Assembly: GCF_008806955.1 (NCBI RefSeq)
Contig: NZ_CP031727.1
Span: forward strand, 806,001-870,000
Reading direction: 5' to 3'
Length of the DNA stretch: 64,000 bases
Source: Cellvibrio sp. KY-YJ-3
Lineage (GTDB): Bacteria > Pseudomonadota > Gammaproteobacteria > Pseudomonadales > Cellvibrionaceae
How positions within the stretch are numbered: the first letter of the stretch is position 1; each line of letters begins with the position of its first letter. The notes beneath the pieces are model-generated. The model did not search any database. It was given only the letters and a program-made list of their open reading frames with translations, and was not told where the DNA came from. Both the position numbers and the translations under genes were made by a program. Shown here in pieces: positions 38,884 to 39,603 of this stretch.

Positions 38884-39603
38884 TCACTTTTTAGCTGCTG
38901 CAGCCTCAACTGCACGCTGCTTGGTTTTTTCCAAGAACGAAGCATCGCCAACTTTACCATGCCCCGGCACCACCAGTTTTGCGGTGCCGTAGCGAGCGAT
39001 AAGTTTTTCAGCGGACGCAGGCCATTCTTCTATTACTGCGTGGCTAAGATTGCCGAGACCGTCGGGTTTGACAAAACAGCCGCCGAATAGAATTTTCTGT
39101 TCTGGCATCCACACCACGACATTATCTGAAGTGTGACCAGCGCCGGGGAAAAACACTTCTATTTTTTTATTGACTAACCAAAAGGGATTTTTGGTAAACG
39201 AATGAGTGGCTTGTGCTTCACCTTTATTTTTAAGCAGCTTGTTAGTTTTCTTGGAGGCATAAGTTGGAATGGACTTTGAGTTGAGAAATGCAATACCGCC
39301 AGTACTGTCGCTGTGGAAATGGGTGGAAATACTTGCCTTAGCGGTAAAGCCCTGCGCGTCAATCCATTTCACTAATTTTTCAGTGTCTTTGGCTGAAATA
39401 GGTGTATCAATCAGATACGCATCTTTGTTATCAAGCACGACTAATCCGTTAGAACCAACCAGTCCCCAGCCTTCGATTTTTTCGTAAGCGGTGTACAGAT
39501 ACACCCCTTCTTCGAGTTTTTTAATTTCCAATTCTGGCAGAGGCTCGTCCGCGAAACTGATGTTTGATAAAAACAGCACCCATAGCGTTAACAAGAATTT
39601 CAT
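38884..39603 (-). CDS. Subclass B1 metallo-beta-lactamase, IMP-like
   Basis: 239 residues: signal peptide [18 protein letters not shown], then a B1 metallo-hydrolase with every zinc ligand. Zn1: His95, His97 (HFHSDSTGG) and His157 (GAGHTSDN). Zn2: Asp99, Cys176 (GGCFVKP) and His215 (VPGHGKVGD). The substrate-binding Lys179 and the Asn of GLGN, and the Trp46 of the mobile L3 loop, are present. Stretches such as [15 protein letters not shown] and IPTYAS match IMP-1 as I remember it almost without gaps. It would hydrolyse beta-lactams, carbapenems included, in the periplasm. Start has an AAGGG site. It lies 28 bases after mrpG on the same strand with no terminator visible between. No integron or IS is nearby. 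Confidence 0.93.

Follow-up and report, generated by a model that had tools for sequence, protein, structure and literature searches.

A KHM-family metallo-beta-lactamase gene in the chromosome of Cellvibrio, a probable source genus of the mobile KHM-1 and IMP carbapenemase genes

A gene in the chromosome of Cellvibrio sp. KY-YJ-3 had been read, in a preliminary description made from the letters alone, as an IMP-like metallo-beta-lactamase and as a possible relative of the ancestral source of the mobile IMP genes. This raises the question of which carbapenemase family the gene belongs to, how long it has been where it is, and whether its lineage has given genes to the plasmids and integrons of clinical bacteria. 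From an analysis of the gene and its surroundings in a stretch of 64,000 nucleotides (the window), we consider it highly likely that the gene encodes a KHM-family B1 carbapenemase, that it is a long-standing resident of Cellvibrio chromosomes, and that its lineage was the source of blaKHM-1, the wider kin being the likely source of the IMP cassettes. With somewhat less confidence, we also think it likely that two or more mobile carbapenemase families have a common chromosomal reservoir in Cellvibrio and close Cellvibrionaceae, KHM-1 having left as a piece of chromosome and most IMP alleles as separate captures from Cellvibrio-type integron arrays.

The gene and its neighbours in the window are as follows:

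38884..39603, minus strand: bla, a KHM-family subclass B1 metallo-beta-lactamase gene, 239 amino acids (frame, profile and alignment)
39604..39631, minus strand: gap of 28 bases to mnhG, with a purine-rich stretch resembling a ribosome-binding site (sequence)
39632..39976, minus strand: mnhG, last gene of an Mrp/Mnh Na+/H+ antiporter operon and left border of a variable site (Pfam)
39987..45580, minus strand: mnhF, mnhE, mnhD, mnhC and an mnhAB-like gene of the same Mrp/Mnh operon (open reading frames and Pfam)
38505..38864, minus strand: VOC/glyoxalase-family gene directly downstream of bla, with a plasmid homologue after KHM-1 at 89% amino acid identity (Pfam)
38141..38422, plus strand: hyp93, a conserved hypothetical of 93 amino acids, the right border common to G010 and G001 (genus comparison)
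35974..37182, plus strand: rtcB, the right-hand neighbour kept in G010 and G001 (Pfam and genus comparison)
33829..35550, plus strand: gene of a DUF3592 protein, 3.3 kb from bla (Pfam)
31128..33236, minus strand: pectate lyase gene (pel), whose homologue on plasmids is present with its 5' part after KHM-1 and VOC (Pfam)

The bla frame is complete from ATG to TGA on the minus strand, which the preliminary description had left unstated; frame 1 of the plus strand is interrupted by stops over the same interval. The gene is present in a single copy in a genome of one 4.49-Mb contig, which agrees with its description as chromosomal. The active site that had been read by eye is borne out by alignment. 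W46, K179 and N185 correspond to what we take to be, in the standard numbering, Trp64 of L3, Lys224 and Asn233, all kept as in KHM-1, and at what is presumably residue 262 both the window protein and KHM-1 have Gly where the IMP proteins compared have Ser. H95, H97, D99, H157, C176 and H215 align with His116, His118, Asp120, His196, Cys221 and His263, named as the B1 zinc ligands in the available part of PMC5637372, so that the window protein carries all six ligands of the subclass. In a gap-free alignment over 239 residues the protein and IMP-1 are 59.4% identical, in line with the earlier impression of more than half the residues identical and almost no gaps, and the best matches among solved structures include chains named IMP-1, gap-free in the five alignments shown.

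Curated models and a phylogeny point to KHM as the family. Against NCBIfam, the protein scores 523.3 bits with the KHM model NF041632 (cut-off 480), where an E-value of 7e-158 means that the match is not due to chance, 491.9 with the KHM/HMB model (cut-off 450), 357 with the broader DIM/SIM/IMP model (cut-off 288) and 254.9 with the bla_subclass_B1 model (cut-off 200); it falls below the cut-offs of the IMP model NF012147 (349.2 against 460), the HMB model NF041161 (406.7 against 500) and the PST model (293 against 525). The best six matches in 72,556 plasmid records are KHM-1, at 80.3% amino acid identity over all 239 residues, and among the matches listed these are followed by IMP alleles at 58–61%, with no HMB gene. 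A protein scan of genome contigs gave three loci, two in Cellvibrio metagenome-assembled genomes and a weak match in Puteibacter. In a midpoint-rooted tree, for which KHM-1 was entered with its full reading frame, the window protein lies outside the IMP clade, within a five-row branch made up of KHM-1 and four Cellvibrio proteins (support 100/99).

If the gene itself belonged to the IMP family, as a chromosomal member, its identities of 58–61% to five IMP alleles and 57% to IMP-13, the shared active-site residues and the score above the broader DIM/SIM/IMP cut-off would be in order, but the score below the IMP cut-off and above that for KHM, the grouping with KHM-1 and the Gly at the presumed residue 262 would not, and we give this reading almost no credence. 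Membership of the IMP family is ruled out by the curated cut-off and the tree placement, so that of the name "IMP-like" the kinship stands and the membership does not; the placement outside the IMP clade is what the preliminary description had said would count against it, though the identity is not low. The gene belongs to the KHM family of subclass B1 metallo-beta-lactamases.

Its relation to the known enzymes can be stated more closely. KHM-1, found on plasmids of Citrobacter, Enterobacter, Klebsiella and E. coli, shares with it the full-length identity, the compared active-site residues and a VOC gene directly downstream; it differs in having a VOC fragment upstream (with ISEc68 in pN069_1 and pTMSNI47-1), where the chromosomal window gene has mnhG, and in that pel follows shortly after VOC on the plasmids and is some 5 kb distant in the window. 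From the integron-borne IMP cassettes, at 57–61% identity and with the same active-site residues, it is set apart by the IMP cut-off, its place in the KHM branch and the lack of a Cellvibrio-type attC site. PST-1 of Pseudomonas stutzeri DSM 10701 is a chromosomal relative of KHM and IMP on a variable insert, according to the part of PMC5637372 available, and the window protein scores below the PST cut-off. HMB-1 to HMB-3 come from Pseudomonas, HMB-3 from a class 1 integron region, and were compared by model score and description only: the window protein passes the common KHM/HMB model and not the HMB cut-off. A DUF3592 gene lies near both the window bla and HMB-3. In the accessible text of PMC13148013, Cellvibrio chitinivorans is proposed as a possible HMB source, and a DUF3592 gene of the C. 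chitinivorans type flanks mobile HMB-3. Because such a gene is found near both, this stretch of chromosome may be where HMB originated.

Because of its likeness to KHM-1 and its intact active site, the window protein is predicted to be exported and to hydrolyse carbapenems; it would be a periplasmic dizinc B1 enzyme cleaving the beta-lactam ring in carbapenems, cephalosporins and penicillins, and a signal-peptide-like stretch can be seen by eye at its N-terminus. A B1-fold hydrolase with a natural task other than beta-lactam hydrolysis would suit the metabolic neighbourhood of antiporter, VOC and rtcB genes, and the hydrolysis is predicted from sequence. Against this, the protein has in common with KHM-1 all six zinc ligands, Lys224, Asn233 and the L3 Trp, and expression of KHM-1 in E. 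coli DH5alpha raised carbapenem MICs (PMC6763765, as far as its text is accessible). We regard such another task as improbable, with a small chance of being true.

The genes mnhG, bla and VOC lie on the same strand, VOC starting 19 bases past the end of bla, which leaves little room for an attC site. A consensus scan found no promoter-like site on the minus strand between 38245 and 40300 (two in the whole region on both strands, against 2.3 expected in shuffled sequence). Because there is no such site near its start, bla probably depends for its transcription on read-through from the mnh operon. The surroundings are free of the mobile elements looked for, as had been noted by eye: the window genome (G000) has no integron integrase at E≤1e-40, the window has no Cellvibrio-type attC site at E≤1 (by a covariance model that finds only this type, see below), and no transposase family occurs among 14 scanned proteins encoded between 28.4 and 50 kb of the window (Pfam; two of the 14 matched no family). 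That the window gene is an integron cassette is improbable, given the 19-base spacing and the lack, at these thresholds, of an integrase and of a Cellvibrio-type attC site. Three proteins with pectate lyase domains flank the locus (window 28451–33236 and 46249–49956), two of them encoded side by side and carrying carbohydrate-binding modules.

We compared the locus in 21 Cellvibrio genomes, G000 included. Matches to bla at E≤0.001 occur in eight, two of them weak and partial, and the KHM cut-off is passed in four (G000, G010, G001 and G005). In each of these four the gene adjoins some of mnhG, VOC, hyp93, rtcB and YbhB, so that relatives do keep such a gene in this neighbourhood, the check that the preliminary description had proposed. 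The gene mnhG was found in 12 of the 21 genomes and VOC in eight, and the interval between them is variable: it holds bla alone in the window; in G010 it holds a toxin-antitoxin-like pair, a SIR2-domain gene, bla and a GNAT gene; and there is no match to bla in the interval of G003, G006, G009, G016 or G019. Genome G005 retains mnhG, bla and GNAT with a remnant of VOC, and in G001, where mnhG was not found, bla adjoins hyp93 and rtcB. Two further details of this site may be recorded. The G010 insert (L011 1204–5723) contains, with the toxin-antitoxin-like pair (by eye), a SIR2-domain protein of 1271 amino acids, possibly a defence gene; and G007 has a decayed KHM-type remnant (L053 2301–2422, residues 202–239) immediately in front of VOC, where the window has its bla.

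The synonymous divergence of the window bla is 0.27 to G010, 0.52 to G001 and 0.91 to G005, of the order of that of its neighbours, and dN/dS is 0.16, 0.14 and 0.09 respectively; the gene is, by these ratios, under purifying selection in Cellvibrio. From the neighbourhood kept in four genomes, the neighbour-like dS and the low dN/dS, we conclude that bla is, as far as can be told from such comparisons, an old resident in a subset of the genus, which would have settled long ago in the variable mnhG–VOC site of the chromosome of a Cellvibrio lineage. Three points run counter to residence: the gene is present in a minority (4/21), its dS against G001 (0.52) exceeds that of rtcB (0.32) and hyp93 (0.13), and its GC3 is low. 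Its G+C is 0.449 and its GC3 0.450, resembling VOC and rtcB, with mnh genes at a GC3 of 0.66–0.78; because its values lie below those of the mnh genes, an older import of bla into Cellvibrio is possible.

A more recent import, in which a KHM-type gene that was already mobile passed from plasmids into Cellvibrio, would account for the patchy presence, the variable site, the G+C below that of the mnh operon and the duplicated VOC 5' ends beside inserts described below. It would not account for a neighbourhood common to four genomes with neighbour-like divergence, for an identity to KHM-1 of 80%, far from near-identity, for the lack of an integrase, Cellvibrio-type attC site or transposase in the parts scanned, or for the fact that it is the plasmid copy that has Cellvibrio flanks and not vice versa. 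We consider it very improbable. Recent insertion of a mobile gene, which the preliminary description had given as grounds for refutation, was thus rejected on the conserved neighbourhood and neighbour-like divergence.

The flanks of the plasmid copy also bear on where KHM-1 came from, which could not be determined according to the available part of PMC6957179. KHM-1 is found on six plasmid records, of which three were fetched, all typed IncC. In all three the gene after KHM-1 belongs to the VOC family, and over 1127 nt the plasmid bla–VOC segment matches the window with 82.4% identity. Beyond VOC comes a homologue of the window pel, represented by its 5' part, and in G016 and G003 pel is likewise the next match after VOC, 0.4 kb on. 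Upstream of KHM-1, pKHM-1 has 1841 nt at 92.6% and 904 nt at 94.2% identity to one continuous stretch of G001, interrupted in the plasmid by ISAs25, which has an 8-base repeat at each edge; a further 331 nt are 92% identical to G019. Homologues of the upstream block occur at 68–78% in G004, G005, G008 and G010, the pattern that vertical inheritance within the genus would leave. KHM-1 is preceded by a decayed fragment of the VOC 5' end, and a similar piece follows bla in G010. Such decayed copies lie beside inserts in the mnhG–VOC site (L011 6586–6655 and 7142–7211; L017 7908–7968), and an insertion mechanism that duplicates the VOC 5' end at this site is suggested. Among the matches listed, backbone common to other plasmids starts about 10.69 kb into the stretch L017; the 0.9 kb or so between the pel fragment and this IncC backbone (L017 9769–10688) has no clear match in the genus Cellvibrio.

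Because VOC, the start of pel and upstream DNA at 92–94% identity were carried along, and because of the 100/99 branch, the donor of KHM-1 was very probably a Cellvibrio. A Cellvibrio piece with bla, VOC and the start of pel, together with upstream Cellvibrio DNA, would have entered an IncC plasmid, blaKHM-1 thus deriving from a Cellvibrio lineage with a window-type bla. We infer both the direction of the transfers and the donor genus from sequence comparison. The sampled Cellvibrio bla genes are 81–82% identical to KHM-1 (in a table where the KHM-1 frame began one codon late), and different plasmid pieces have their best matches in different genomes. The fork that places KHM-1 among the Cellvibrio proteins has a support of 86/84 only, so KHM-1 could still be sister to all four. 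This, and the absence of the exact donor from the sampled genomes, would fit a third, unsampled lineage that gave KHM-type genes to Cellvibrio and to plasmids alike. Such a lineage would, however, leave the Cellvibrio matches of VOC, of the pel fragment and of the upstream block carried with KHM-1 (up to 94% over 904 nt), and the upstream-block homologues at 68–78% in four other genomes of the genus, to be explained, and we consider it unlikely. The notion of a relative of the ancestral source of mobile genes therefore finds support, through the shared flanks, for KHM-1 in place of IMP.

For IMP the idea holds one step away, in other Cellvibrionaceae. A B1-type gene at E≤1e-20 occurs in 21 of 144 genomes of the family, the window genome included, and among the 10 of the other 20 carriers that were classified with NCBIfam three pass the IMP cut-off, at 508 (G009) and 510 (G016) in Cellvibrio and at 487 (G055) in another genus. 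These IMP-family genes are:

L016 9262–10002, chromosomal: IMP-family gene of G016 (NCBIfam)
L015 9262–10002, chromosomal: IMP-family gene of G009 (NCBIfam)
L063 8275–9015, chromosomal: IMP-family gene of G055 (NCBIfam)

None of 390 genomes sampled across the order passes this cut-off; Cellvibrio contributes two genomes to this sample, from which all three carriers are absent. Over 246 residues the G016 protein has 92.7% identity to IMP-13, its sister in the midpoint-rooted tree (96/87). All three proteins fall inside the 19-row IMP branch (100/98), apart from IMP-14, -18, -56 and -75-like (98/95 for the branch that holds them). On a 411-kb contig of G016, which has an estimated contamination of 7% and no integron integrase at E≤1e-40, the IMP gene sits within an array of small cassettes between parE-like and helicase-like genes (named by eye).

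A first attC profile was built from four sites of other cassettes in the G016 array. With it, at E≤1e-5, integrase-side stretches yield 51 distinct sites, 37 in G006, 9 in G007, 4 in G014 and 1 in G002, and that of G009 (L120) yields none. The same profile matches the attC sites of clinical IMP-1, -11, -13, -45 and -68 and of an IMP-75-like gene. A covariance model was then made from 24 Cellvibrio attC sites, excluding the IMP cassette's own, and applied to 19 clinical loci, 16 of IMP with SIM-1, VIM-1 and a DIM-like gene. It matches 12 of the 16 IMP loci, with 69–134 bits and each time directly after the IMP gene, and none of the other three loci nor any neighbouring cassette in the stretches fetched. 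Because several are near-copies, the 12 represent perhaps five lineages. The IMP-13 site scores 134.3 bits, against 135.5 for the best Cellvibrio sites. No Cellvibrio-type site at E≤0.1 is found at IMP-8, IMP-19, IMP-64 or IMP-4, the annotated next feature of the last being a group II intron; the IMP-8 and IMP-19 cassettes (L093, L156) lack the common attC type, their site being perhaps replaced or hybrid. In the genomes the attC of the G016 IMP-like gene itself scores 59 bits, weaker than its neighbours', and none at E≤1 lies right after the IMP-like genes of G009 or G055.

The covariance model matches 20 of the 21 genus genomes, 72 of the 144 family genomes and 31 of the 390 order genomes, 22 of these outside the family and mostly with one match each, match numbers that are rough since at most 26 (family) or 9 (order) candidates were scored per genome and both strands of the palindrome were counted. 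Outside the family, only G238 (106) and G379 (97) exceed the IMP-1 score of 96. Sites above 116 bits occur in five family genomes outside Cellvibrio (G053, G062, G132, G136 and G141), and because the model also finds sites in those genera, another genus of the Cellvibrionaceae could have been the IMP donor. Because relatives of IMP type are chromosomal here and one is clearly a cassette in an attC array, Cellvibrio and its near kin are likely the source of the mobile IMP cassettes too, which would descend from IMP-type cassettes in these chromosomes; the attC type is that of most of the clinical IMP cassettes examined.

This reasoning for IMP is the attC-signature argument of PMC8352920, which, in the part available, predicts cassette sources from attC sites; its Table 1 does not list IMP and its main text, as accessible, does not contain the word Cellvibrio. 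We found no published statement of a Cellvibrio origin for KHM or IMP, and judged by the titles and abstracts listed a single paper touches the question, PMC13148013 with its proposal for HMB; subscription papers and preprints were thinly covered and an earlier publication is possible. According to the available text of PMC7782503, no gene with a confirmed origin is a gene cassette; if the present reading is true, a gene-cassette carbapenemase gains a traced donor lineage, separate captures would explain the diversity of IMP, and the origin of IMP would be directly testable by sequencing Cellvibrio isolates. The window gene itself is one more enzyme of the KHM family, and it is its surroundings that point to the very probable source of KHM-1: an environmental Cellvibrio chromosome carries a close relative of a carbapenemase of hospital plasmids, and sister species point to the likely source of KHM and the widespread IMP.

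Two minor observations concern attC sites elsewhere. In the window genome, with no integrase at E≤1e-40, the six stretches read (L159–L164) around 1.48, 1.78, 1.90, 2.46, 3.85 and 4.33 Mb of its contig (G000:C1) together contain 23 distinct attC sites of the Cellvibrio type at E≤0.001. In G134, of another Cellvibrionaceae genus, a gene at L065 7444–8163 scores 533, over the VMB cut-off, and is flanked on either side by a weak attC match (28.7 and 28.2 bits); because of these matches, VMB too may be a Cellvibrionaceae cassette.
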